Assembly (NCBI GenBank): GCA_019309545.1
Contig: JAFDGA010000024.1
Span: 1 to 38,383 of the forward strand
DNA: 38,383 nucleotides
Direction of reading: 5' to 3'
Origin: Deltaproteobacteria bacterium
GTDB taxonomy: Bacteria > Desulfobacterota > Desulfobaccia > Desulfobaccales > Desulfobaccaceae
Shown: positions 1,194 to 13,307 of the stretch, piece after piece
How the letters are laid out: each line of letters starts with the position of its first letter
Position numbering within the stretch: the stretch's first letter is position 1
The notes under the pieces: generated by a model
The model's database searches: none
What the model was told of the DNA's origin: nothing
Seen by the model: only the letters and a program-made list of their open reading frames with translations
Program-made: the position numbers and the translations under genes

Positions 1194-2054
1194 ATGGAAA
1201 CTGTAAAAATTGAAGGAGTCACCCTGCATCTGGCCCATCCCGATGAACTGGACCTGGCCTGGGTGGGGCAGGAAGAGTTGCTGGCCCAGGTGTTGGCCGC
1301 CTGGCTGATGGTGGATGAACGGGATCTGCCGCTGAACCCCCGGCTGCTGGGCAAACCCGGAGTCGGCAAAACCACCCTGGCCTATGCCGCGGGTAAAAAA
1401 CTAGGCCGCGAAGTTTACCTGTTTCAGGCCACCATGGACACCCGGCCCGAGGACTTGCTGGTCACTCCGGTGATCGCCGGTTCCAATAAAATCCAATACA
1501 TGGCCAGTTCCCTGGTGACCGCCATGCTGCGGGGCGGGGTGGCGGTGATCGATGAGGCCAACCGGATGAGCGAAAAGAGCTGGGCTTCCCTGGCCCCGCT
1601 GCTGGATAACCGCCGTTATGTAGAATCGATTGCCGCCGGGATCAAGATCAAGGCCCATCCCGATTTTCGCATCTGTGTGACTATGAACGATGATGCTTCT
1701 ACCTTTGAGGTGCCGGAATACATCCACTCCCGGCTTATGCCCCAGATCGTGGTGGATTTCCCCAGCGCCGACGAAGAACAGCGTATTCTAACGCAGAATC
1801 TGCCTTTCGCCCCTAACTTTATCCTGGATTATGTGGTCAACTTCCTACAGCAGGCGCACCAGGCCCGGGAACGCTTTACGGTCCGGGATGGTATCAACAT
1901 TGCCCGCTATGCCTTTAAATTGTCCCGTTCCCAAACCACTCCGGCTCAAGGGCGGCTAACCCAGATCTCCGGTCAAGAGATTTTTCGTACTTGTCTGATA
2001 CAGGCTATCGTCCAGATTCTAGGGGAGGAAGCCCTGGATTATGTCCCCCACTGA
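1194..2054 (+). CDS. MoxR-type AAA+ ATPase
   Basis: A 286-residue single-domain AAA+ protein. Walker A is GKPGVGKTT (about residues 53-61), Walker B is VAVIDEAN (about 116-123), and sensor 1 is the ICVTMND strand near 163. The text between them (PEDLL, SSLVTAMLRGGVAVIDEANRM) is the MoxR/CbbQ pattern, and SRLMPQIVVDFP matches the family's arginine-finger region. MoxR ATPases act as chaperone-like motors, usually with a VWA-domain partner. The next gene starts inside this one (14-base overlap), so the two are translationally linked. No VWA gene is visible. The ATG at 1194 has no clear Shine-Dalgarno, but the N-terminus is of normal length for the family. Confidence 0.88.
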   Translation: METVKIEGVTLHLAHPDELDLAWVGQEELLAQVLAAWLMVDERDLPLNPRLLGKPGVGKTTLAYAAGKKLGREVYLFQATMDTRPEDLLVTPVIAGSNKIQYMASSLVTAMLRGGVAVIDEANRMSEKSWASLAPLLDNRRYVESIAAGIKIKAHPDFRICVTMNDDASTFEVPEYIHSRLMPQIVVDFPSADEEQRILTQNLPFAPNFILDYVVNFLQQAHQARERFTVRDGINIARYAFKLSRSQTTPAQGRLTQISGQEIFRTCLIQAIVQILGEEALDYVPH

Positions 2055-3876
2055 GGTCAATCACTCCGCCCCGGCCTTTATTCCCTTTCAGCATCTGGCC
2101 CTGGTTCCGGTCTTGCACGGCCGCCTGGAATGCGCCCTGCTGGTGCGCCAGGCCTTTGACCAGTATCAGCCCCAGGCGGTGGCGGTGGAGCTGCCCCCCA
2201 CGGTCCAGACCGCGGTCCGGCAGGCGGTGCAACGTCTGCCCTTGCTCTCGGTAGTTTATTATGAAGAAAGCGACGGCCGCTTGGTCTATTTCCCCATCGA
2301 GCCCACTGACCCGCTCATCGAAGCCATTCGCCTGGGGCAGGAACATAGCTTGCCGGTCCATTTTATTGATCGCGAGGTGGAAGGTTATCCACGCCTCCGG
2401 GAACCCCTGCCAGACCCTTATGCATTGAACCAGATCGGCCTTAGAGCCTATGCCGACGCCTACCGCCAAAGTTGCCAGGGGCTGACCCCCAAATGGCCCG
2501 ATGTGCTCCGAGAACAGGCTATGGCCTATCACCTGGGAGAGTTGCAGAAGCGTTATGAACGACTGCTGGTCGTCTTTGGACTGGCCCATTACCCTGGGCT
2601 AATGGAGCAATTGACCCGGCCCCAGGCCCATCCCCTGGAAAAGCGCAAGCGAGCCGGGGTGATGGTGGCCCACCTGGCCGAGGACTCCAGCCGCGAGATA
2701 TTGTCAGAAATTCCTTATCTAGCCGCAGTCTACGAGCAGGCCCGGATTGAAATTCCGCCCCCAACCCTGGATCGCCTGCAACTCCATCAGCAACTCATTG
2801 CCGAGGCCGCAGTCCGTTACCAGAAAAATCAGGGCGACGGCATTTCCCTGACACAGCAGGCTATCCTGCACCAGTTTGCCCGCAATTATGCCCTCATTCA
2901 GGGGCATCTGACCCCCAACTTTTATCAACTGGTAGTGGCCGCCCGGGGGGTGGCCGACGACGATTTTGCTTACGAAGTCTGGGACTTGGGAGCTACTTAT
3001 CCCTGGCAGAGCCAAGACCCTGGACTGCCGGTTTTACGTCTCACCGGCGAAGATCTCTTCCTCAATCAGAAGCGCATCCGCTTTCAGCGGCGTTTTCGCC
3101 AGACCCGGCGACGTCTGGTGCCAATGCCAGTGCGGGCCCGCCCCCGAGAAGCCCGACCCGGCCAGTGGCGGGAAGCTTGGCGCGGCACCGGCATCTGTTC
3201 CTATCCCCCGGAAGATCTGGTGATAGAAGACTTCGGCGATTTCGCCCGCAAAAAAGCCATGCACACGCTTTCCGAGCAGAACCGCCGGGTGGAGCCTTTT
3301 ACCGCGTCGTTGTTGGACGGCATTGCAGTGCGGGAGACCATCCGCAACTGGCATGAACAGGTGATTTATGTGATGGAAGAGCGGCGGGTGCCCGGTAAGG
3401 TCGGGGCAGTGGTGACCATCTTTGACCCTGACCGCGGCGCAGAGGAAAAATATCCCTGGCGGGTCACCTGGCTGGGGGAACACGCGCAGGAATCAGACAT
3501 GGCCTTTTATGCTACTCCGGCCGGGGAACATTTAGTCGGCCCAGGCATTTCGCGTTGCAAATATGGCGGCTTCATGCTCTCTTACCCGCCCTGGCGGCTG
3601 TACGAAGTCTGGCAAGATGCCTTCTTTGGGATAGCCCGCAGCAAACCCGAGCGTCTGGTGCTGGCCGCCCTGGATTACAGCCTGGAAAAGCACGTAGCCT
3701 ATATTGCCGCCCAGCCGCCCCGCCGTCGCTGGCTGAGCTGGGCCAATCGCTACGGCAAAAAGCTGGTCTATCTGCCGCTCGGCAGCTTCTCGCCGGTGAC
3801 CTTAAAGAAAATCCAAACCTTCCATGTTCTCGACGGCCAGCCGGTGCGCCACTGGGCCGGGGATTATATCTGGTAA
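2041..3876 (+). CDS. 611-aa protein with TraB/EreA-like N-terminal domain; MoxR partner
   Basis: ATG 2041 overlaps the end of the ATPase gene by 14 bases and follows an AGGGGAGGAAG ribosome site. Residues about 18-190 show the sequence pattern of the TraB/PrgY/EreA (Tiki-like) hydrolase fold: a His after the first strand (VPVLHG), a Glu in VAVELPP, the FIDRE strand-turn, and a late VVFGLAHYPG strand carrying another His. Residues about 200-380 are helical. The C-terminal 230 residues are rich in Trp, Tyr and Arg, and I do not recognise them. No signal peptide or membrane segment is seen. Because it is coupled to a MoxR ATPase, it is plausibly the client or effector that the ATPase remodels; this is inference. 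TraB-like assignment rests on motif spacing only. Confidence 0.7.
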   Translation: MSPTEVNHSAPAFIPFQHLALVPVLHGRLECALLVRQAFDQYQPQAVAVELPPTVQTAVRQAVQRLPLLSVVYYEESDGRLVYFPIEPTDPLIEAIRLGQEHSLPVHFIDREVEGYPRLREPLPDPYALNQIGLRAYADAYRQSCQGLTPKWPDVLREQAMAYHLGELQKRYERLLVVFGLAHYPGLMEQLTRPQAHPLEKRKRAGVMVAHLAEDSSREILSEIPYLAAVYEQARIEIPPPTLDRLQLHQQLIAEAAVRYQKNQGDGISLTQQAILHQFARNYALIQGHLTPNFYQLVVAARGVADDDFAYEVWDLGATYPWQSQDPGLPVLRLTGEDLFLNQKRIRFQRRFRQTRRRLVPMPVRARPREARPGQWREAWRGTGICSYPPEDLVIEDFGDFARKKAMHTLSEQNRRVEPFTASLLDGIAVRETIRNWHEQVIYVMEERRVPGKVGAVVTIFDPDRGAEEKYPWRVTWLGEHAQESDMAFYATPAGEHLVGPGISRCKYGGFMLSYPPWRLYEVWQDAFFGIARSKPERLVLAALDYSLEKHVAYIAAQPPRRRWLSWANRYGKKLVYLPLGSFSPVTLKKIQTFHVLDGQPVRHWAGDYIW

Positions 3877-3897: not shown

Positions 3898-4329
3898 TCA
3901 GATATTACTTTGTTTTCGTAGCCATTCTCTGACAAAATCGGCAAATCTGGCTAAATCATCGATCTGTTGTAAATTACTATAGACTTCATCCCAATCCAAT
4001 CGAATATATTCATGAATCAGGATGTTGCGGAATCCGGCTAGCGGGGCTAAGTTCCGGGCAAAATCTAATGGTATAACCCCCAGTTCCCCCATTTTTAATA
4101 AGGCCTCATAATAATCCGTGGGCTTAGGGGCCTGAGTCAGCGATATGATGCGGTGGCTAATATCCAGGCAACATTGCACCGCTACTTCCAGATTTCGCTC
4201 CACAATATCGCGCAGGTACGGGTCCTGGTCAAACTCGGCCCGTTTCTTGGCTCTGAGCGGCTCTAATCTGGCCAAGCGTTCGCTCAGTTCGTCCAAGCGC
4301 CTCTCGATACCACTGAATTCGACTGGCAC
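3898..4329 (-). CDS. hepT: HepT-type HEPN toxin (RNase)
   Basis: A 143-residue all-helical protein of the HEPN/DUF86 family. The diagnostic RX4HXY motif is present as RNILIHEY, with Arg101, His106 and Tyr108. In characterised systems HepT cleaves RNA and is silenced when MntA adds AMP to that tyrosine. The start is GTG at 4329, chosen because AGGAGGG lies six bases upstream. The start lies inside mntA, giving a 101-base overlap, so toxin translation depends on antitoxin translation. It ends only 22 bases from the convergent MoxR-partner gene. Confidence 0.88.
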   Translation of the reverse strand: MPVEFSGIERRLDELSERLARLEPLRAKKRAEFDQDPYLRDIVERNLEVAVQCCLDISHRIISLTQAPKPTDYYEALLKMGELGVIPLDFARNLAPLAGFRNILIHEYIRLDWDEVYSNLQQIDDLARFADFVREWLRKQSNI

Positions 4330-4729
4330 GTTGCCCTCCTGCTAAAATTTCCTGCCGCCAGGCCCGCAAGACTGGGAGATAATCGGCATAACGACTCATA
4401 ATTTGAGCCTCATATTCCACCCGGATCGCCAGATCGCGCTGATAAAGGACTTTACCCTGCCAGATAATGGCGTAAGCCAATTCAATAGGGGCTTGACCTA
4501 ACCAGACCACGTCCACCTTAGCAGGTTTGAGGAGACTGGTTAGGGCCTGGTGCAGACGGCCATGCCGTGGGGGGGGATCTTGACCTCGGTCACACAAAAT
4601 TCCCAGATCATAGTCACTCTGCGGCCCGGAACGACCCTCAGCCTGCGAACCGAATAGATAAACCAGACTGACCTCAGGAAAATTTTTTAGGATTTGCGGT
4701 AGTTTATTTTTAAGAAAGGCTAGCCTCAT
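4229..4729 (-). CDS. mntA: MntA nucleotidyltransferase antitoxin
   Basis: A 166-residue minimal nucleotidyltransferase. The GSX10DXD signature is intact: GS of LFGSQAEG, ten residues, then DYD (residues about 27-41), with a third acidic strand at VDVVW near residue 93. In MntA/HepT pairs this enzyme AMPylates the toxin's RX4HXY tyrosine. The protein is a little longer than many MntA proteins; its last third, rich in Arg and Gln, is the part that overlaps hepT. No strong ribosome site is seen before the ATG at 4729. Order is antitoxin first, toxin second. Confidence 0.88.
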   Translation of the reverse strand: MRLAFLKNKLPQILKNFPEVSLVYLFGSQAEGRSGPQSDYDLGILCDRGQDPPPRHGRLHQALTSLLKPAKVDVVWLGQAPIELAYAIIWQGKVLYQRDLAIRVEYEAQIMSRYADYLPVLRAWRQEILAGGQRASRIQWYREALGRTERTLGQIRAAQSQETGRV

Positions 4730-4985: not shown

Positions 4986-5723
4986 TTAACGGCAGTCGCG
5001 GCAGACGAAGTAGTGTTCCACCGGTTCCCCGGTAAGTTTGGCCCAGTATTCCAGTTGGGCCAGGGGGGCGATATAGTTGCCGCAGACATTACAGCGGACC
5101 ATCTCGAATTCCCGTCCCCAGATGATGCGCTTGCCGTCTTGTTCAATATAAGGGATGACCTCTGTAGGACAGATGAAGGCACAGGAACCGCAGCCGATGC
5201 AGGCGTCGGAAGGCTCCAGAAAGGGGGTGGTCACCAACTTGCCAGGGGTGCGGTAAGCCATACTGATGGCGCTGACGCCGACGACCTCCCGGCAGGTGCG
5301 GACGCACAGGCCACAGAGGATGCAAAGTTCATTCGGGTCTTCGCTGGGAAACCGGGACTCATGGATTCCCATCTCGGCAGCCATATCCTGAATAATCTTG
5401 GCCTTGGGAGCTCGAGCCAACAGCAGCTCCAGTGTCATACGCCGGGCTTGCAGGACCTTTTCGGAGTGGGTCTGCACCTGCAGACCGGACTCGGCCGGAT
5501 AGGTACAGGAGTTGACCAGGCGGGTATGGGGATGTTCGCCGATCTCTACCACACACAACCGGCAATTGCCTTCCGAAGGTAGTTCGGGATGGTAACAGAG
5601 GGTGGGGATATCGACGCCGAGGTGTTGAGCAGCCTGTAGCAGGGTATACCCCTGGGGCACCTTGAGGTAGATGCCGTTGATCAGAAGACCTACTTCCTCC
5701 ATGACGGACTCCATTTTATCCAC
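4986..5723 (-). CDS. HoxU/NuoG-N-terminus-like iron-sulfur protein
   Basis: A 245-residue electron-transfer protein. A plant-type [2Fe-2S] site (Cys43, Cys54, Cys57, Cys73) is followed by two [4Fe-4S] ferredoxin motifs (Cys134/137/140/144 and Cys175/178/181/185) and a final CX2C...CX2C pair (Cys211/214/241/244) that could hold zinc or iron. The His-Cys cluster site usual in NuoG and HndD is absent: the helix there reads LLLARAPKA. There is no H-cluster or molybdopterin domain. It is the last gene of the por-nuoEF run, 167 bases after nuoF, with a repeat in the gap. The longest frame starts at GTG 5723; in-frame ATGs at codons 4 and 8 are alternatives. It probably carries electrons between the flavoprotein and a ferredoxin-type partner. 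Confidence 0.85.
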   Translation of the reverse strand: MDKMESVMEEVGLLINGIYLKVPQGYTLLQAAQHLGVDIPTLCYHPELPSEGNCRLCVVEIGEHPHTRLVNSCTYPAESGLQVQTHSEKVLQARRMTLELLLARAPKAKIIQDMAAEMGIHESRFPSEDPNELCILCGLCVRTCREVVGVSAISMAYRTPGKLVTTPFLEPSDACIGCGSCAFICPTEVIPYIEQDGKRIIWGREFEMVRCNVCGNYIAPLAQLEYWAKLTGEPVEHYFVCRDCR

Positions 5724-5801
5724 ATCGCTACTAACTGGTTAGTTATATGACATATTAAGCCCTGTTTTTACCTAAAACTAGAACTCGAAACTGACTTGTA
5801 G

Positions 5802-5916
5802 CTTATACCGATTAGCTTTCAAATGAGTAATTTTATCCTTTATCCCCTCTCCCCCGCTGGCGGGGGAGAGGGCGAGGGTGAGGGGGCATTTTAGCTCTTT
5901 GATCGCAACTTGGTAT
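5802..5916. repeat. 115-bp palindrome-cored repeat, copy 2
   Basis: Second copy of 4818-4932, same orientation, about 95% identical. It overlaps the 3' end of nuoF: the stop codon and the last residues (TKLRSKS) are written in repeat sequence. The strong hairpin lies just past the stop, where it could act as a transcript-end or mRNA-stability structure between nuoF and the Fe-S gene. Confidence 0.85.
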
Positions 5917-7756
5917 CCGCGTCAAATTGGCAGACATCATGACAGCGGCCGCATTTGATGCAGAGGTCCTGATCAATATGTTGCGCTTCCTTCTTGGGGC
6001 CGCTGATCGCCCCCACCGGGCATTCCCGGACACAGGCCAGACAGGCGGTGCAAGCCTCCGGGTCAATGGTATAGGTCAGCAGGGGCCGGCACACCAGGGC
6101 CGGACATTTTTTGTCCCGGATATGAGCTTCGTATTCCTCCCGGAAATATTTTAAGGTAGTAAGCACCGGATTGGCGGCGCTCTGCCCCAACCCGCAGAGG
6201 GAGGCGTTGGCCATGGTGGTGCAGATTTCCTCCATCAGGGCAAGATGCTCCTCCTTGCCCTGGCCGGAAGTGATGTCGTTTAAGATACTCAATAACTGCC
6301 GCAGGCCTTCCCGGCAGGGAGTACACTTGCCGCAGGATTCTTCAAACAGAAACGAAATGAAATAGCGGGCTACGTCCACCATGCAGCTGGTGGTATCCAT
6401 GACGATCATGCCGCCGGAGCCCATGATCGAGCCGACTTCCTGGAGGCTGTCATAATCGACCGGCAGGTCCAGGAACTGCTTGGGGATACAGCCGCCGGAG
6501 GGGCCGCCGGTCTGCACCGCTTTGAACTCCCGGCCTCCCGGGATGCCGCCGCCCAGTTCAAAGATGATCTGTCGGAGGGTGGTACCCATGGGCACCTCCA
6601 CCAGGCCGGTATGATTCACCGCCCCCACCAGGGAGAACACTTTGGTGCCCTTGCTCTTTTCTGTCCCCAGGGAGGCAAACCACTCCGGCCCCATATTGAT
6701 GATCTCCGGGACATTGGCCCAGGTTTCGACATTATTGATCACCGTGGGCAGGTCAAACAGCCCTTGCTGGGCCGGATAGGGAGGTCGGGGCATAGGCTCC
6801 CCGATATTGCCTTCAATGGAGGCGATCAGGGCCGTTTCTTCGCCGCAGACAAAGGCCCCGGAGCCTTGACTGATCTTGATATCAAAGTCAAATCCGGATC
6901 TCAAAATGTTGGTACCTAGGAGGCCGAATTCCCGGGCCTGCTCAACCGCCTGGGAAAGGCGTTTGACGGCCAGGGGATATTCATGCCGCACATAGATGTA
7001 ACCTTGGCGAGCGCCGATCGCAAAAGCCCCGACGATCATACCCTCCAGAACAGCGTGGGGGTCGCCTTCCATCACCGCCCGGTCCATAAAGGCCCCCGGG
7101 TCGCCTTCATCGCCGTTACAAATGACGAATTTCAGTTCACCAGGAACCTGGCGGCACAGGCGCCATTTGCGTCCGGTGAGAAAACCGGCCCCGCCCCGGC
7201 CCCGCAAGCCGGAACGTTCCACGGCCTCAATGACTTCTTCTGGGGTCATCTTGAACAGCACCTTCCTCAGGGTACGGTAGCCGCCTAAGGCTAAATAATC
7301 GTCCAGACTTTCCGGGTCGATCTCATCCAGTTTCCTTAACACCAGCGGCTTTTGCCCCTGATAAAAGGGGACTTCAGACTTATGAACGGCAGGTTGCCCG
7401 CTGACCGGGTCATGATAGACCAGACGCTCAACCACTCCCCCCCCGACCAGACTGGTCTCGACGATTTCCGGGACATCTTCGAGGGTTACTTTCTGGTAGG
7501 CGATCTCCTGGGGCCGCAGCAGCACCCGCACGCCGTGCGCACATAAGCCGTGACAACCGGTGCTTTTCAGAACGACTTTACCTTGCAGGCCCTTTTCTTG
7601 CAGCTGCTCCTGGAAAGCCTGGGCCACCTCGGTGCTTCCCATCGGGAGACAGCCGGGGCCGCTGCAAACCAAAACCTGCTGCTGCTTAGGGTCCCGTCGG
7701 GCCCTAACCTGGCGCCGATATTCTGTCAGATGATCAACCGATTCAATCTTAGGCAT
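5891..7756 (-). CDS. nuoF: NuoF/HydB-like NADH-binding flavoprotein
   Basis: A 621-residue three-part protein. Residues 1-110 are a thioredoxin-like [2Fe-2S] domain (Cys31, Cys36, Cys68, Cys72). The centre is the NuoF core: FMN loop GRGGAGFLTGRKW (about 186-198), NADH-binding GSGAFVCGEETAL, and the [4Fe-4S] motif ESCGKCTPCREG with its fourth Cys in SLCGLG. The C-terminal 60 residues carry two [4Fe-4S] motifs (CTACLACVRECP, CIKCGRCHDVC). This domain order matches the beta subunits of bifurcating hydrogenases and NAD-dependent formate dehydrogenases, rather than complex I NuoF. It starts 15 bases after nuoE. Its last residues are encoded by the inserted repeat. Confidence 0.93.
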   Translation of the reverse strand: MPKIESVDHLTEYRRQVRARRDPKQQQVLVCSGPGCLPMGSTEVAQAFQEQLQEKGLQGKVVLKSTGCHGLCAHGVRVLLRPQEIAYQKVTLEDVPEIVETSLVGGGVVERLVYHDPVSGQPAVHKSEVPFYQGQKPLVLRKLDEIDPESLDDYLALGGYRTLRKVLFKMTPEEVIEAVERSGLRGRGGAGFLTGRKWRLCRQVPGELKFVICNGDEGDPGAFMDRAVMEGDPHAVLEGMIVGAFAIGARQGYIYVRHEYPLAVKRLSQAVEQAREFGLLGTNILRSGFDFDIKISQGSGAFVCGEETALIASIEGNIGEPMPRPPYPAQQGLFDLPTVINNVETWANVPEIINMGPEWFASLGTEKSKGTKVFSLVGAVNHTGLVEVPMGTTLRQIIFELGGGIPGGREFKAVQTGGPSGGCIPKQFLDLPVDYDSLQEVGSIMGSGGMIVMDTTSCMVDVARYFISFLFEESCGKCTPCREGLRQLLSILNDITSGQGKEEHLALMEEICTTMANASLCGLGQSAANPVLTTLKYFREEYEAHIRDKKCPALVCRPLLTYTIDPEACTACLACVRECPVGAISGPKKEAQHIDQDLCIKCGRCHDVCQFDADTKLRSKS

Positions 7757-7771
7757 GACGTATTCTCAGTG

Positions 7772-8230
7772 TTATTCTTTATAGAGTTTCAATATCTTAG
7801 GAACCTTATCAATGGTCATTCTAGCATAGTATTTATCATCCACCATCATCACCGGGGCCTGGGCACAGGAACCCAAACAGCCCACCGTCTCCAGAGAGAA
7901 TTGCATGTCCGGAGTGGTATAGCCCGGCTCGATTCCCAGGTGACTGGTCATCGATTCTAACAGGCGTTGCCCGCCCTTGAGATGACAGGTAGTGCCCAGG
8001 CATACCCGCAACTGGTGGCGTCCCTTGGGAGTCAGACTGAACATCTTATAAAAGGTGGCTACCGAGTAAACTCTGGTTAAGGGGACGTTGATCCGCTGCG
8101 CCACCTCTTTCAGTTCGTCTTTGGGGAGATAGTGATACTGGTCCTGGATTTCCTGCAGGATCGGGATCAGATCCTGGGGATAACCCTCATATCGAGATAG
8201 AATTGATTCCAGTCGTTCTACGTCCATCAT
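7772..8230 (-). CDS. nuoE: NuoE-like [2Fe-2S] subunit
   Basis: A 152-residue thioredoxin-like ferredoxin. The N-terminal helical part contains LIPILQEIQDQYHYLP and RVYSVATFYKMF, typical of NuoE/HoxE/HydC. The cluster cysteines appear as CLGTTC and, about 36 residues later, CLGSC. The ATG at 8230 overlaps the porB stop in an ATGA, with GAGGAAGG upstream, so it is translated in step with the pyruvate oxidoreductase beta subunit. It passes electrons to or from the NuoF-like flavoprotein. Confidence 0.92.
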   Translation of the reverse strand: MMDVERLESILSRYEGYPQDLIPILQEIQDQYHYLPKDELKEVAQRINVPLTRVYSVATFYKMFSLTPKGRHQLRVCLGTTCHLKGGQRLLESMTSHLGIEPGYTTPDMQFSLETVGCLGSCAQAPVMMVDDKYYARMTIDKVPKILKLYKE

Positions 8231-9219
8231 GCACCTTCCTCAGCATGAGATAGGGGAGGAAATTCCGGATAGGGTGCTGCGCATTTTTTCAATAACAGAT
8301 CATAGTGCGCCAGCACCTGGCGTTGAATAAATTCGATCTCCGGTTCCCGGAGATGCCGGAACCGGCCCTGCAGCCTGAGATAATCTTTCACGGGCCGCAG
8401 TTTGGGTATTTCAATGGTCAGGCGATAACGGCCATCTACTACCTCATAAAGCGGGAAGACGCCGGTTTCCACTGCCAGGCGGCCCAGTCGCACGGTCAGG
8501 TCAGTAGCCGAACGCCAGCCAGTGGGACAGACCGACAGGATATGGATATAGGCCGGACCCGGGGTTTCCACGGCGCGTTTGACTTTGAAATAGAGGTCGA
8601 ACAGATAGCTGGGGCAGGCCGTCGCCACATAAGGGATGCCGTGTGCCACTGCGATGGCCACCATATTCTTTTTCCAGGTGGGTTGTCCGATGCTTCTTTT
8701 GCCCGGCGGCGAGGTGGTGGTCATGGCCCCATAAGGGGTGGAGCTGGAGCGTTGGATGCCGGTGTTCATATAAGCTTCGTTATCCCAGCAGATATAGGTG
8801 AAATCATGGCCCCGTTCCATGGCTCCGGACAGGGCCTGGAGGCCGATATCGCTGGTGCCACCGTCACCGCCCATAGCCACCACTTTGGGGGGGTGACCGG
8901 CAAGTTTCCCCTTGCGGGCCAGAATCTTGTAGCCAGCCTCCAACCCCGAGGCTACTGCCGCAGTATTTTCAAAAGCCACATGAATCCAGGGTTGGACCCA
9001 GGCCGTCTGCGGGAAGCCGGAGGAGACGATCTCCATACAGCCAGTGGCGTGAGCAATAACCGCATTTTTACCAATGGCCTTGCAGACCCACCTCACGGCC
9101 AGGGCTTCACCACACCCTTGGCAGGAGCGATGGCCGGAAGTGAAGTACTCCTCCTTGGGCAATAGGCGCGAGGCGTAGACATCGTATTTTTGGCTGCTAG
9201 CCACATCAAATTTATCCAT
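8227..9219 (-). CDS. porB: Pyruvate (2-oxoacid):ferredoxin oxidoreductase, beta (TPP) subunit
   Basis: A 330-residue thiamine-diphosphate subunit. CX2CG (Cys33, Cys36), Cys61 in ATGCMEI and the distal Cys231 in VCPTGW give the four [4Fe-4S] ligands of PorB. GGDGGTSDIG with the following NEAYMNTGIQRS segment is the TPP/Mg site. It binds pyruvate with PorA and makes acetyl-CoA, CO2 and reduced ferredoxin (or the reverse). It overlaps porA by one base and nuoE by four. Length is normal for PorB. Confidence 0.93.
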   Translation of the reverse strand: MDKFDVASSQKYDVYASRLLPKEEYFTSGHRSCQGCGEALAVRWVCKAIGKNAVIAHATGCMEIVSSGFPQTAWVQPWIHVAFENTAAVASGLEAGYKILARKGKLAGHPPKVVAMGGDGGTSDIGLQALSGAMERGHDFTYICWDNEAYMNTGIQRSSSTPYGAMTTTSPPGKRSIGQPTWKKNMVAIAVAHGIPYVATACPSYLFDLYFKVKRAVETPGPAYIHILSVCPTGWRSATDLTVRLGRLAVETGVFPLYEVVDGRYRLTIEIPKLRPVKDYLRLQGRFRHLREPEIEFIQRQVLAHYDLLLKKCAAPYPEFPPLSHAEEGA

Positions 9220-10397
9220 CAGCCTCTTACTCCATACATATAAAATTCTTGACGGGGTCCCAGTTCAGCTTCAGCCTGGGCCTGAGCCACGATCTCTTTA
9301 AAGTCCTCGGGCGGGACATCCCGCCCTCCCAGGCCGATTATATAACCAAGCACTTTGGGTTGGGGAGAAAGCGGGTAAAGTACGCTGCGGACTTCAGAGA
9401 GTACCGGCCCCCCAGGGCCGCCCACCGACAGGGCCCGATCGCAAACGATTAATAGTTCGGCGCCATTGACCGCCTCCCGCAGGGCGGCAAAGGGAAAGGG
9501 CCGCCACAGACGTAACTTTAACAGGCCCACCGGCACACCCGCGTCCCTCAGTTCGTCCACGGCGATTTCGGCCACTTCACTCAAGCAACCCATAGTCAAC
9601 AGGAGAATCTTGGCGCCTTCGGTTTTGTAATGCTCTACCGGATGATAATCCCGCCCGGTAAGCTGCCCCCACTCCTGCCACACCTTCATAATCTGGTCAT
9701 AGGAGTTCATCAGGGTAACCTGATGCTTCATCTTAAATTCCGCGAAAATCTCGGGCATACCAAAGGCCCCCATGGTCACCGGTTTTTTGGGGTCTAGTTG
9801 ATGCCAGGGGTGATAAGGGGGCAAAAAGCGATCCACGGTGTCCTGATCAGTAAACTCCAAGGCCTCCACCACGTGGCTGAGGATAAATCCGTCCAGATTG
9901 ACGATCATCGGTAACAGCACCCTGCGATGTTCAGCAATCTTAAAGGCCATAATGGTATGGTCAAAGGCCTCCTGGCCATTTTGGACAAAGACCTGAATCC
10001 ACCCAATATCCCGCGCCCCCATGATATCGCTATGGTCGTTCCAGATACTTAGGGGACCAGAGAGGGCCCGGTTGGCCACGGTCATCACGATGGGAAAGCG
10101 CATGGCCGAGGCAATGAACAGGATTTCGTGCATCAGGGCCAGACCTTGGGAGCTGGTGGCCGTATAGGTCCGGGCTCCGGCCGCGGAGGTGCCGATACAG
10201 GCGCTGATAGCGGAATGCTCGGACTCCACATTAATAAATTCCGCCTCTAATTCGGCGTTGGCAACCAGACTGGAAAGATGTTCCACAATGTGGGTCTGGG
10301 GGGTGATGGGGTAGGCGGCGATGGCCTCGGCCCGGGCCAATTGCACCGCATGGCTGACGGCAAGGGAGACCTCTATGCCCACTCGCTTAGCCATCAT
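9219..10397 (-). CDS. porA: Pyruvate (2-oxoacid):ferredoxin oxidoreductase, alpha subunit
   Basis: A 392-residue PorA. The N-terminus has AAYPITPQTHIVEHL, the conserved YPITP motif, and ESEHSAISACIGTSAAG; then TATSSQGLALMHE and NRALSGPLSIWNDHSD, the latter being the form seen in pyruvate enzymes rather than 2-oxoglutarate ones. The C-terminal domain (about 260-375) is the transketolase-C part. The start is ATG 10397 (or the next codon, 10394), overlapping the porD stop in ATGA with GGAGGAAG just upstream; a longer frame running back to 10466 lies inside porD and is rejected. Confidence 0.93.
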   Translation of the reverse strand: MMAKRVGIEVSLAVSHAVQLARAEAIAAYPITPQTHIVEHLSSLVANAELEAEFINVESEHSAISACIGTSAAGARTYTATSSQGLALMHEILFIASAMRFPIVMTVANRALSGPLSIWNDHSDIMGARDIGWIQVFVQNGQEAFDHTIMAFKIAEHRRVLLPMIVNLDGFILSHVVEALEFTDQDTVDRFLPPYHPWHQLDPKKPVTMGAFGMPEIFAEFKMKHQVTLMNSYDQIMKVWQEWGQLTGRDYHPVEHYKTEGAKILLLTMGCLSEVAEIAVDELRDAGVPVGLLKLRLWRPFPFAALREAVNGAELLIVCDRALSVGGPGGPVLSEVRSVLYPLSPQPKVLGYIIGLGGRDVPPEDFKEIVAQAQAEAELGPRQEFYMYGVRG

Positions 10398-10687
10398 TCT
10401 TCCTCCGTTACCATGCTGATACAACCGGTGACACATTCCCGGGCGCAGATGCCGCAACCTTTGCAATAATCGAGGTTAACATCAAAATAGCCCCCGGTTT
10501 CCTCGATAATCGCCGCTTCCGGACAGACGGTCCAGCAGACCCCGCAACGGATGCAGTGGCTTTTGGTCCATACCGGGTGCTGCGATTTCCAATCTCCTAC
10601 CTTATAATCCCTGGCACTTCCCGGCTCCCTTAGGATCCCGCCCAGCTCAACTTCTTGCCAGGTGTAGTCCTCCAATGGTTTGGTCAT
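10394..10687 (-). CDS. porD: 2-oxoacid oxidoreductase delta (two-cluster ferredoxin) subunit
   Basis: A 97-residue ferredoxin-type subunit. After a 40-residue lead there are two [4Fe-4S] motifs, CIRCGVCWTVCPE and CKGCGICARECV, spaced as in bacterial ferredoxins. In four-subunit POR enzymes the delta chain relays electrons from the TPP-side cluster to external acceptors. It overlaps porG by four bases at its start and porA by four at its end, so the whole set is translationally coupled. Confidence 0.93.
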   Translation of the reverse strand: MTKPLEDYTWQEVELGGILREPGSARDYKVGDWKSQHPVWTKSHCIRCGVCWTVCPEAAIIEETGGYFDVNLDYCKGCGICARECVTGCISMVTEEE

Positions 10688-11241
10688 GGTCGAGCTTCCT
10701 CCACCACTGTTTTGTCGTAGGCTGCTTTCAAGGCCGCAAAATTTTTGGCCGCCATGGGACCGAATCGTTCCCGCAGCGGGTGCTCTAAGGAGTCAACGTT
10801 AACCACTCCGGTAGCCCGGATCAAGGCCCCCAGCATGGTAGTGTTGACAATCAGCACTCCCAACACCTCTCGGGCAATATGATTGGCATCCACTATCGCC
10901 AAGGTATGCTTAAAGCCATATTCCTGCCGGACTTGGTCTATCGACTTGTGGGTATTTAACACCACTATGCCATTGTCTTTCAAGTCTGCGGTCGGTTTCT
11001 GAATGCGTATCAAGCCAGGGTCAAGAATAGTCACCACATCCGGTTGGGCAATCTTGCAACGCAGACGGATATGACGGTCGTTAATGCGGAGGAAAGCCAA
11101 TACCGGAGCACCTCGGCGTTCCGGCCCGAAGCTGGGGAAACCTTGGGCAAACTTGCCTTCCTCAATGGCGGCCAGAGCCAAAAGCTCCACCGAGGTTACT
11201 GCTCCTTGTCCGCCCCGGCCGTGGAATCGAATTTCTAACAT
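10684..11241 (-). CDS. porG: 2-oxoacid oxidoreductase gamma subunit
   Basis: A 185-residue gamma chain with the hallmark N-terminal FHGRGGQGAVTS glycine motif and FPSFGPERRGAPV loop. IVNTTMLGAL and the C-terminal helix AAKNFAALKAAYD are also typical. This subunit helps form the CoA/substrate-binding region of POR. It is the first gene of the continuous cluster, with a leader of about 240 bases separating it from a diverged copy of itself upstream. The short upstream block at 11317-11330 recurs at the same distance ahead of that copy. Confidence 0.93.
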   Translation of the reverse strand: MLEIRFHGRGGQGAVTSVELLALAAIEEGKFAQGFPSFGPERRGAPVLAFLRINDRHIRLRCKIAQPDVVTILDPGLIRIQKPTADLKDNGIVVLNTHKSIDQVRQEYGFKHTLAIVDANHIAREVLGVLIVNTTMLGALIRATGVVNVDSLEHPLRERFGPMAAKNFAALKAAYDKTVVEEARP

Positions 11242-11479
11242 ATATTGGCCTCCTCAACTGGGATGGCATACAATTGTTCGAAAGCCATTATAAAGCTTAA
11301 TATTCTTAAACCAGAGTGTCAAATAAAATCTTATCAGGAAGATCAGATTTCGCTTAGAATAATTGGATTTTTAATTTATTCAGTACCACCCAAAATGAAC
11401 ATATGTTCTTAATAATTTTAGTGATTTCGAAACCGCCCTAGCAATCTTGACTGAAAGCGATAAAATCTGTCCAGCCTCC
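11242..11479. promoter_or_regulatory. Leader of porG, related to the leader of its paralogue
   Basis: AT-rich spacer that must hold any promoter of the por-nuo run. Three blocks recur in the same order upstream of the second gamma gene: TGTCAAATAAAATC (11317-11330; 12107-12120 has one change), TTAGTGATTTCG (11418-11429; near 12183), and ATCTTGAC (11444-11451; 12214-12221). The first lies 76 bases from one start codon and 73 from the other. This suggests gene and leader were duplicated together. Confidence 0.5.
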
Positions 11480-12034
11480 TTAAGTTTCTCTTTCCTGGAT
11501 AACTGTTTCCTTGTAGGCCTTCTGGAGGGCAGCAAGATTTTTGGGGGCTGACCGACCCAGGTGTTCCAGCATCGGCGGTTCGATTGATTCCAGATGCACT
11601 ATCTGGGTTACCTTGATGACCGCACCCAGCATGATGGTGTTGACCATGGAAGTGCCCAGGATTTCCCGGGCAATCTGGTTGCCATTGATAACCCCCAAAG
11701 TGACTTGATAGCCGTAGATTTCTCGGATTTCCTCAGGTGCCTTGGCAGTATTTAAAATTAGGATGCCGGTCTTTTTCAAGCCTTGGGTAACATCTTGAAC
11801 TGTTAACAGACTTTCATCCAGGACCACTGCGACGTCTGGTTCCTCGATCTGGGCAGCTAAGCTAATCGGCACTTCATTAACTCTAACAAAGGCCTTAACC
11901 GGGGCTCCCTTCTGTAAGGGTTGATTTGTAAATGCTTGCACATACTTGCCCTCGGCCATGGCTGCCAGGGCCAGTAATTCGACCGAGGTTTCCACTCCCT
12001 GGCGGTCCCAGGCGTGAAATCGAATTTCTATCAT
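11480..12034 (-). CDS. Diverged second 2-oxoacid oxidoreductase gamma-like subunit
   Basis: A 184-residue paralogue of the downstream porG, nearly half identical by eye and collinear almost to the end. The signature is broken: where porG has FHGRGGQGAV this has FHAWDRQGVE, and the FPSFGPERRG loop reads FTNQPLQKG. The rest (TSVELLALAA, GAPV-AF-R-N, MVNTIMLGA, PKNLAALQKAY) is kept, and the frame is intact. It stands 238 bases upstream of porG on the same strand. It may be an alternative or non-catalytic gamma chain that changes substrate or assembly, but this is inference. Confidence 0.85.
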   Translation of the reverse strand: MIEIRFHAWDRQGVETSVELLALAAMAEGKYVQAFTNQPLQKGAPVKAFVRVNEVPISLAAQIEEPDVAVVLDESLLTVQDVTQGLKKTGILILNTAKAPEEIREIYGYQVTLGVINGNQIAREILGTSMVNTIMLGAVIKVTQIVHLESIEPPMLEHLGRSAPKNLAALQKAYKETVIQERET

Positions 12035-12216
12035 GAATCAGCTTCCTTAGCCTCCTCGGCCCGATATATCCCAACGACTGCCTAGTTTAAATTCCTGATT
12101 AGGGAATGTCAAATTAAATCACCGCTGTCCCTGTTCAGAAGGCAGAGGTTTTTACCTTAAAATTTATTCGAATCTCAACAGCTTAGTGATTATTTCGCCG
12201 GTACCCATTATTTATC

Positions 12217-12312: not shown

Positions 12313-12516
12313 TTGAAGATCTGCAAAACTTGCCGTTACTGGTCTTGGAAGTTCAAGGGTTTCTGTTACCGGCAAAACCGAGGGGTAGGTCAATTTTGGA
12401 GTTGTGAAGCGTGGGTTGAAGATCCGCCTTTGAGTGAATCCAGCCAGGATGACAAGCATCATGACTACTTAATGCCGGGGATAACAGCGCAAAGCAAGGT
12501 TGCCAAGCACGGCTGA
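12313..12516 (+). CDS. Small Cys-rich protein (67 aa), metal-binding candidate
   Basis: Starts at TTG 12313, supported by AAGGAGAAAG eight bases upstream. Cys4, Cys7, Cys18 and Cys31 sit in CKTCRYWSWKFKGFC and FWSCEAW, a four-Cys arrangement fit for one zinc or iron, as in small zinc-ribbon or rubredoxin-like proteins. The tail is hydrophilic. Its stop is nine bases before the flavin reductase-like gene, so the two form an operon behind the promoter at 12217. A second protein with a related CX2C-X11-C pattern follows at 13113. I do not recognise a named family. Confidence 0.65.
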   Translation: MKICKTCRYWSWKFKGFCYRQNRGVGQFWSCEAWVEDPPLSESSQDDKHHDYLMPGITAQSKVAKHG

Positions 12517-12525
12517 GGAGAAATT

Positions 12526-12984
12526 ATGCAGGAGGTAGTATTTTCTGCCATAACCCAAGGCGTTTGTGTACTCACTAGCCGAGACGGGAACAAAGTCAAT
12601 GGCATGACCGCGGCCTGGGTGGCCCAAGTGTCCTTCAAACCTTTATTGATTATGGTATCCGTGGCGTTTACCCGCTATTCCCATGAGTTGATCAAGAAAA
12701 GCGGCATCTTTGCGCTCAATGTCTTGACTACCGAACAGGTGGACCTGGGTAAACGCTTCGGTTATAAGAGTGGACGCCGGGTGGACAAGTTCGCCGGCCT
12801 GTCTTATGATACCGCCGTTACCGGGGCGCCCATTCTTCCCGAAGCTTATGCCTACCTGGATCTGAAACTGGTCCATACCTATCCGGCCGGTGACCATGAT
12901 CTGTTCATCGGCGAGGTAGTGGATGCCAAGATACTTCACCCTGAGGCTAAGCCGTTGATTTTTAAAGCAAGTACATTCTTTTAA
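12526..12984 (+). CDS. Flavin reductase-like FMN-binding protein (flavoredoxin type)
   Basis: A 152-residue split-barrel flavoprotein. The N-terminal strand GVCVLTSRDGNKVNGMTAAWVAQ, followed by KPLLIMVSVA and YSHELIKKSGIFALNVL, is the pattern of the flavin reductase/flavoredoxin family, in which FMN is bound around the GMTA-W segment. The C-terminal DHDLFIGEVVDAKI strand is also typical. It starts at ATG after GAGGAGA. It probably shuttles electrons to small redox proteins; flanking Cys-rich small proteins are possible partners. Confidence 0.85.
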   Translation: MQEVVFSAITQGVCVLTSRDGNKVNGMTAAWVAQVSFKPLLIMVSVAFTRYSHELIKKSGIFALNVLTTEQVDLGKRFGYKSGRRVDKFAGLSYDTAVTGAPILPEAYAYLDLKLVHTYPAGDHDLFIGEVVDAKILHPEAKPLIFKASTFF

Positions 12985-13112: not shown

Positions 13113-13307
13113 ATGTCTGATTTAAGGGATGTGGGTATAATCTGCATAAACGGCAAAATCCGAGGTGTATGTCAGAACTGCTTGTGGCTGGAGTGGGATC
13201 ACGCTCTAAATAAATGCGTTAACCAGGGAACCAGCGTCTGCCACCTGGAGGCAGAGCGGAAGGCAAATTTCCCTTCTCCAAAAGAGATGAAGTTAGCCGG
13301 TGTCTAG
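13113..13307 (+). CDS. Small Cys-rich protein (64 aa)
   Basis: ATG 13113 with a GGGAGGGGAG site 11 bases upstream. Five cysteines are present; Cys20, Cys23, Cys35 and Cys43 (GVCQNCLWLEWDHALNKC, SVC) form a pattern like that of the 67-aa protein at 12313, with the same Trp-rich stretch between the second and third Cys. It likely binds a metal. It follows the flavin reductase-like gene by 128 bases with a structured leader. No named family recognised. Confidence 0.65.
   Translation: MSDLRDVGIICINGKIRGVCQNCLWLEWDHALNKCVNQGTSVCHLEAERKANFPSPKEMKLAGV

Follow-up and report, generated by a model that had tools for sequence, protein, structure and literature searches.

A putative CoA-blind second gamma subunit encoded beside a POR operon in a genus of the Desulfobaccaceae

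The POR locus and its surplus gamma gene

The stretch of DNA analyzed here, referred to as the window, comprises 38,383 nucleotides of contig JAFDGA010000024.1 from a Deltaproteobacteria bacterium of the family Desulfobaccaceae (GCA_019309545.1). It encodes an ordinary pyruvate oxidoreductase (POR; this one POR1) together with an additional gene for a PorC-type gamma subunit, designated gamma' in what follows. The genes of the locus are:

11480 to 12034, minus strand: gamma', a second PorC-type gamma subunit (open reading frame, Pfam POR, TIGR02175, predicted fold)
10684 to 11241, minus strand: canonical gamma subunit PorC, with GRGGQG and FPSFGPERRGAPV (open reading frame, Pfam and TIGR profiles)
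10394 to 10687, minus strand: delta subunit PorD, with two [4Fe-4S] sites (profiles)
9219 to 10397, minus strand: alpha subunit PorA (POR_N and PFOR_II; PorA_Arch, 476 bits)
8227 to 9219, minus strand: beta subunit PorB, TPP (profiles)
7772 to 8230, minus strand: NuoE-like subunit of the same operon (profile)
5891 to 7756, minus strand: NuoF/HydB-like NAD(H)- and FMN-binding subunit (profiles)
4986 to 5723, minus strand: HoxU/NuoG-N-like [2Fe-2S]/[4Fe-4S] subunit (profile), conserved in Desulfobacca

The mechanically called frame of porA reaches 10466; its likely start, MMAKRVGIEV at 10397, was deduced from the sequence. The order gamma, porD, porA, porB, followed by the NuoE-, NuoF/HydB- and HoxU-like genes, is common to the window and to Desulfobacca, of which Desulfobacca acetoxidans is an acetate-oxidizing sulfate reducer (PMC3156406). 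In Desulfobacca too, the operon continues (4986 to 8230, minus strand, in the window) with these three genes, connecting the POR to an NAD(H)/FMN module; POR1 is probably NAD(H)-linked and the assembly possibly electron-bifurcating or confurcating. A gene pair for a HepT-like ribonuclease and a nucleotidyltransferase (HEPN/MNT toxin-antitoxin type; 3898 to 4729, minus strand) lies directly after the por-nuo operon, and an AAA ATPase followed by a DUF5682 protein is encoded at 1194 to 3876 on the plus strand.

The gamma' frame begins with an ATG at 12034, terminates at 11480 and encodes 184 amino acids with no internal stop, exactly the coordinates, frame and length given by the initial annotation, which had described an intact second gamma subunit. 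Its product scored 112 bits against Pfam POR (PF01558; cut-off 27.4) and 158 bits against TIGR02175 PorC_KorC (cut-off 81.1). A PorC fold was predicted by AlphaFold2 with a pLDDT of 94.2, and the best PDB matches found with Foldseek were PorC of Thermotoga and Methanosarcina (2raa, TM 0.88; 9bt4_E, TM 0.86). Two alignments were made without Met1 of the window gamma' (end coordinate 12031), and residue numbers in these, including those of the predicted structure, are shifted by one.

A second complete POR (POR2; gamma, delta, alpha and beta) is encoded on contig C23 of the same genome (413 to 3548); it is present in the window genus and in some other genera of the order, and was not seen in Desulfobacca. 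Each of the other gamma-type genes of the genome (those of POR2, of an indolepyruvate enzyme and of one fused protein of 1300 amino acids) has its own catalytic subunits, and no orphan alpha/beta pair devoid of a gamma was found in the genome. With gamma' being surplus and adjoining the porD, porA and porB genes of POR1, the PorABD encoded downstream is therefore its likeliest partner.

Two altered loops

Alignment of gamma' with the neighboring canonical gamma, which reads MLEIRFHGRGGQGAVTS..GFPSFGPERRGAPV where gamma' reads MIEIRFHAWDRQGVETS..AFTNQ-PLQKGAPV, located two altered elements:

11996 to 12013, minus strand: AWDRQG codons at the place of GRGGQG; residues 8-13, in the turn between strand 1 and helix 1 (alignment, secondary structure, orthologs)
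11900 to 11929, minus strand: rewritten second loop TNQPLQKGAP, canonically PSFGPERRGAP (alignment; TKRSSSSKESS in orthologs)

The replacement of GRGGQG by AWDRQG had been recognized earlier, and the alignment confirmed it. The FPSFGPERRGAP loop had been described as lost; altered it is, but rather than being wholly lost it is rewritten and one residue shorter, with GAPV persisting in the window copy. Two orthologs from the same genus both read TKRSSSSKESS at the second loop, and GAPV is gone from each. At the first motif they read ARAGQK and ARPGQG, such that glutamine is the sole residue of the six positions common to all three gamma' copies. An altered motif common to the orthologs, for which the initial annotation had suggested looking, was thus not found; with the three copies reading differently, the first motif is freed from constraint and not replaced by a new signature. 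GRGGQG and FPSFGPERRGAPV are kept by the canonical POR1 gamma across the order, and by every further phylum match in which the motif was read.

In length, fold, position beside porDAB and most core residues, gamma' resembles PorC/KorC gamma subunits (PF01558, TIGR02175); it differs from them by an erased GRGGQG P-loop and an erased FPSFGPERRGAP loop, and in being a surplus copy. On sequence grounds, it is a member of the PorC fold family, yet it is not classed as a functional CoA-dependent PorC because the glycine-rich GRGGQG and FPSFGPERRGAP signature of these proteins is absent from all three gamma' copies.

The presumed CoA site and oxalate oxidoreductase

According to an article citing the Moorella PFOR structure, CoA is bound by a P-loop that domain III of PFOR, the gamma domain, forms (PMC8091585). 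The GRGGQG motif here would represent this CoA-binding P-loop, as suggested by that secondary citation, by the position of the motif in the predicted model, at the turn that joins strand 1 to helix 1, and by a comparison with oxalate oxidoreductase (OOR). OOR oxidizes oxalate without CoA (PMC5020499), and nine OOR-delta-like genes of the phylum (seven of them above the curated cut-off) all lack both elements, reading RGVVMD, RGVIQD or RGVTQD (SGVVQD in one) and DLPDRV. Hence, an OFOR that is independent of CoA lacks what gamma' lacks. Several families of the phylum have genes of this kind, and in some of these the gamma part and the ferredoxin part are separate genes, divided by a stop.

Like OOR delta (NF045790; PDB 5c4i), whose enzyme needs no CoA, gamma' is an OFOR domain III devoid of the same two elements, and by sequence comparison it shares the OOR-delta trait of having no CoA P-loop. 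In contrast to OOR delta, which has a fused C-terminal ferredoxin domain (split off in some genomes) and its own alpha/beta subunits, gamma' has neither, its 184 amino acids holding the POR domain only. The two proteins are only distantly related (23-33% identity), the gamma' score of 62 bits against NF045790 lies below the cut-off of 230 bits, and gamma' appears to have lost its loops separately. The literature covered contained no description of a CoA-blind gamma.

Selection on gamma'

Selection was assessed with a branch codon model (F3x4) in which the three gamma' sequences carry the tests; the stem branch of gamma' was saturated and left out of interpretation. An omega of 0.265 was obtained for gamma' vs 0.072 for the canonical gamma. 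Neutrality, for which a dN/dS test had been proposed earlier, was rejected (omega = 1, 2dlnL 63), and setting omega of gamma' equal to that of gamma cost 2dlnL 30. On the recent branches of the two other genomes of the genus alone, omega of gamma' was 0.21, again distinct from 1 (2dlnL 35).

The alignment was further partitioned at the loop regions named by the initial annotation, with branch lengths kept at those estimated from the complete alignment. Omega of the two regions was approximately 0.001 in the canonical gamma vs 0.51 in gamma' (0.67 for its GRGGQG site alone), while the remainder of gamma' gave 0.235; the difference between loops and rest was moderately significant (2dlnL 7.2, p ~0.007). 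The two loops are thereby the most constrained sites of the canonical gamma and the least constrained of gamma'. A neutrally evolving gene should have taken approximately 24 nonsense hits across the clade, and no stop or frameshift occurs in the three species. Given these omega values and the retention of the frames, the scaffold of gamma' is kept under purifying selection with its two loops released to near-free drift, and decay to a pseudogene is rejected.

Predicted promoters

Two predicted promoters of the same type are positioned at nearly the same distance from their genes:

12084 to 12112, minus strand: gamma' promoter, sigma-70-type, TTGACA-N17-TAAACT, conserved in all three species
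11294 to 11322, minus strand: promoter of the canonical por operon, TTGACA-N17-TAAGCT

The former is found 50-78 bases ahead of the gamma' start, together with a purine-rich stretch resembling a Shine-Dalgarno sequence. The genome contains 82 occurrences of TTGACA-N17-TANNNT vs nine for the reversed control, an excess suggesting that the organism makes use of such sigma-70 promoters. An extended pattern, ATTTGACA-N17-TAANCT, occurs genome-wide only at the gamma' and por promoters, but it was written after both had been seen and counts for little; outside the hexamers the similarity of the two is weak. In the two genomes of the genus Desulfobacca that were checked, gamma is not preceded by the por operon promoter.

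Distribution and origin

Orthologs of gamma', the search for which had also been proposed, were found in all three sequenced species of the genus: both other genomes (G027 and G028) carry an intact copy at the same place. All genomes of the genus are drafts; with two independently assembled ones carrying the gene in the same position, gamma' is not an accident of sequencing or assembly. These orthologs share 61-62% identity with the window gamma', compared to 92% for the canonical gamma and 91-96% for porA, porB, porD and the Nuo-like genes. The gamma' gene evolves several times faster than the neighboring genes, as would be anticipated were its role weak or narrow.

Searches of the 26 remaining genomes of the order, Desulfobacca included, and of 395 sampled genomes of the phylum, these with either a single sequence or a three-sequence profile, yielded no ortholog; with the profile, the next best phylum match scored 215 bits vs 360-379. 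A tblastn search of the gap upstream of gamma in Desulfobacca revealed no relic of the gene, a scan of GTDB contigs returned only one canonical Anaerolineae gamma, and viral contigs gave no match. In trees built without the loop columns, an origin of gamma' within the POR1 gamma subunits of the order was not rejected (AU p 0.41), and a recent duplication of the genus's own gamma was disfavored (AU p 0.02), a result made unsure by long branches.

In all three species of the genus a flavin-reductase-like gene (12526 to 12984, plus strand, in the window) is divergent from gamma', and it is absent beside POR1 in Desulfobacca; on this account, it may have arrived together with gamma'. Two small Cys-rich proteins with no Pfam match are encoded on either side of it (12313 to 12516 and 13113 to 13307, both plus strand), and a relative of the second is also found near POR1 in Desulfobacca.

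Proposed function of gamma'

The initial annotation had taken an open frame with a lost signature to indicate a new role and not decay, a view upheld by the orthologs in three species, the omega of 0.26, the intact frames and the conserved promoter. It had left the role itself open; the data now point to a loss of CoA binding. We propose, with a probability of about one half, that gamma' is a functional, CoA-blind alternative gamma which acts on PorABD to throttle or divert the pyruvate/acetyl-CoA reaction. It would compete with gamma for the same site on the PorA-PorB-PorD core, whose genes follow immediately downstream, thereby generating a second form of the enzyme able to bind TPP and pyruvate, and not CoA. 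Such a complex would stop at hydroxyethyl-TPP or release from it a product free of CoA, and so constitute a brake or a diverter on the exchange between pyruvate and acetyl-CoA. That it would stall or leak is suggested by observations on an archaeal OFOR, in which the radical intermediate derived from pyruvate is stable without CoA and decays once CoA is added (PMC5020499). The bifunctional POR/pyruvate decarboxylase of Thermococcus and Pyrococcus exemplifies a POR able to end in acetaldehyde and not acetyl-CoA; it differs in that one gamma serves both reactions, with no CoA-blind gamma reported (PMC4058850). CoA has a structural role even in the release of acetaldehyde by this enzyme (PMC4058850), and we accordingly lean toward a brake over a decarboxylase.

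An appreciably less probable role is that of an assembly or holding chain, whereby gamma' would stand in for gamma on PorABD while clusters are inserted, or in storage, and would then give way to gamma without ever being catalytic. Its separate promoter ahead of the operon and the retention of the scaffold with loss of the ligand site are compatible with this, but no such chain accompanies the further POR systems observed in the order, and the sequence bears no sign of a transient role. It is rather unlikely that PorABD with gamma' oxidizes a different 2-oxoacid without CoA in the manner of OOR. The two elements lost are the same in OOR delta, to which gamma' is also slightly closer than gamma is (62 vs 43 bits with the profile; 42 vs 38 in separate comparisons). 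Nevertheless, the single alpha/beta pair at the locus is PorAB by score (PorA_Arch 476 bits vs OOR alpha 282 bits), no OOR delta passes the cut-off in the window genome, the fused ferredoxin domain is missing, and gamma' is nearer to PorC (49-53% identity) than to OOR delta.

A partnership with POR2 is more doubtful still: within the family, POR2 and gamma' do both occur in the window genus with neither being seen in Desulfobacca, but POR2 is complete in itself, with a canonical gamma as well as delta, alpha and beta; a POR2-like gamma without gamma' is present in further genera of the order (G007, G015, G017 and G018); and gamma' both adjoins POR1 and shares its promoter core. Least probable is a slowly decaying relic with no role, as the raised omega, the drifting loops and the lack of gamma' in the sister genus might suggest, given that omega = 1 is rejected on deep and recent branches separately, the three species are free of the nonsense hits expected, and the promoter and Shine-Dalgarno-like sequence are conserved.

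POR joins acetyl-CoA and pyruvate in anaerobes, and little is understood of how these organisms direct it toward oxidation, synthesis or side reactions. A CoA-blind gamma' would raise the tentative prospect of a bacterium that regulates its POR by swapping in a pseudo-subunit blind to the acyl acceptor, the exchange of gamma turning the same catalytic core into a CoA-independent enzyme, whether stalled or diverted. Being a retained copy of gamma released from constraint at the presumed CoA site only, gamma' would make the role of this domain testable by a natural subunit swap. If the proposal is true, gamma' would be a second, independent case, beside OOR, of an OFOR without the CoA loops.
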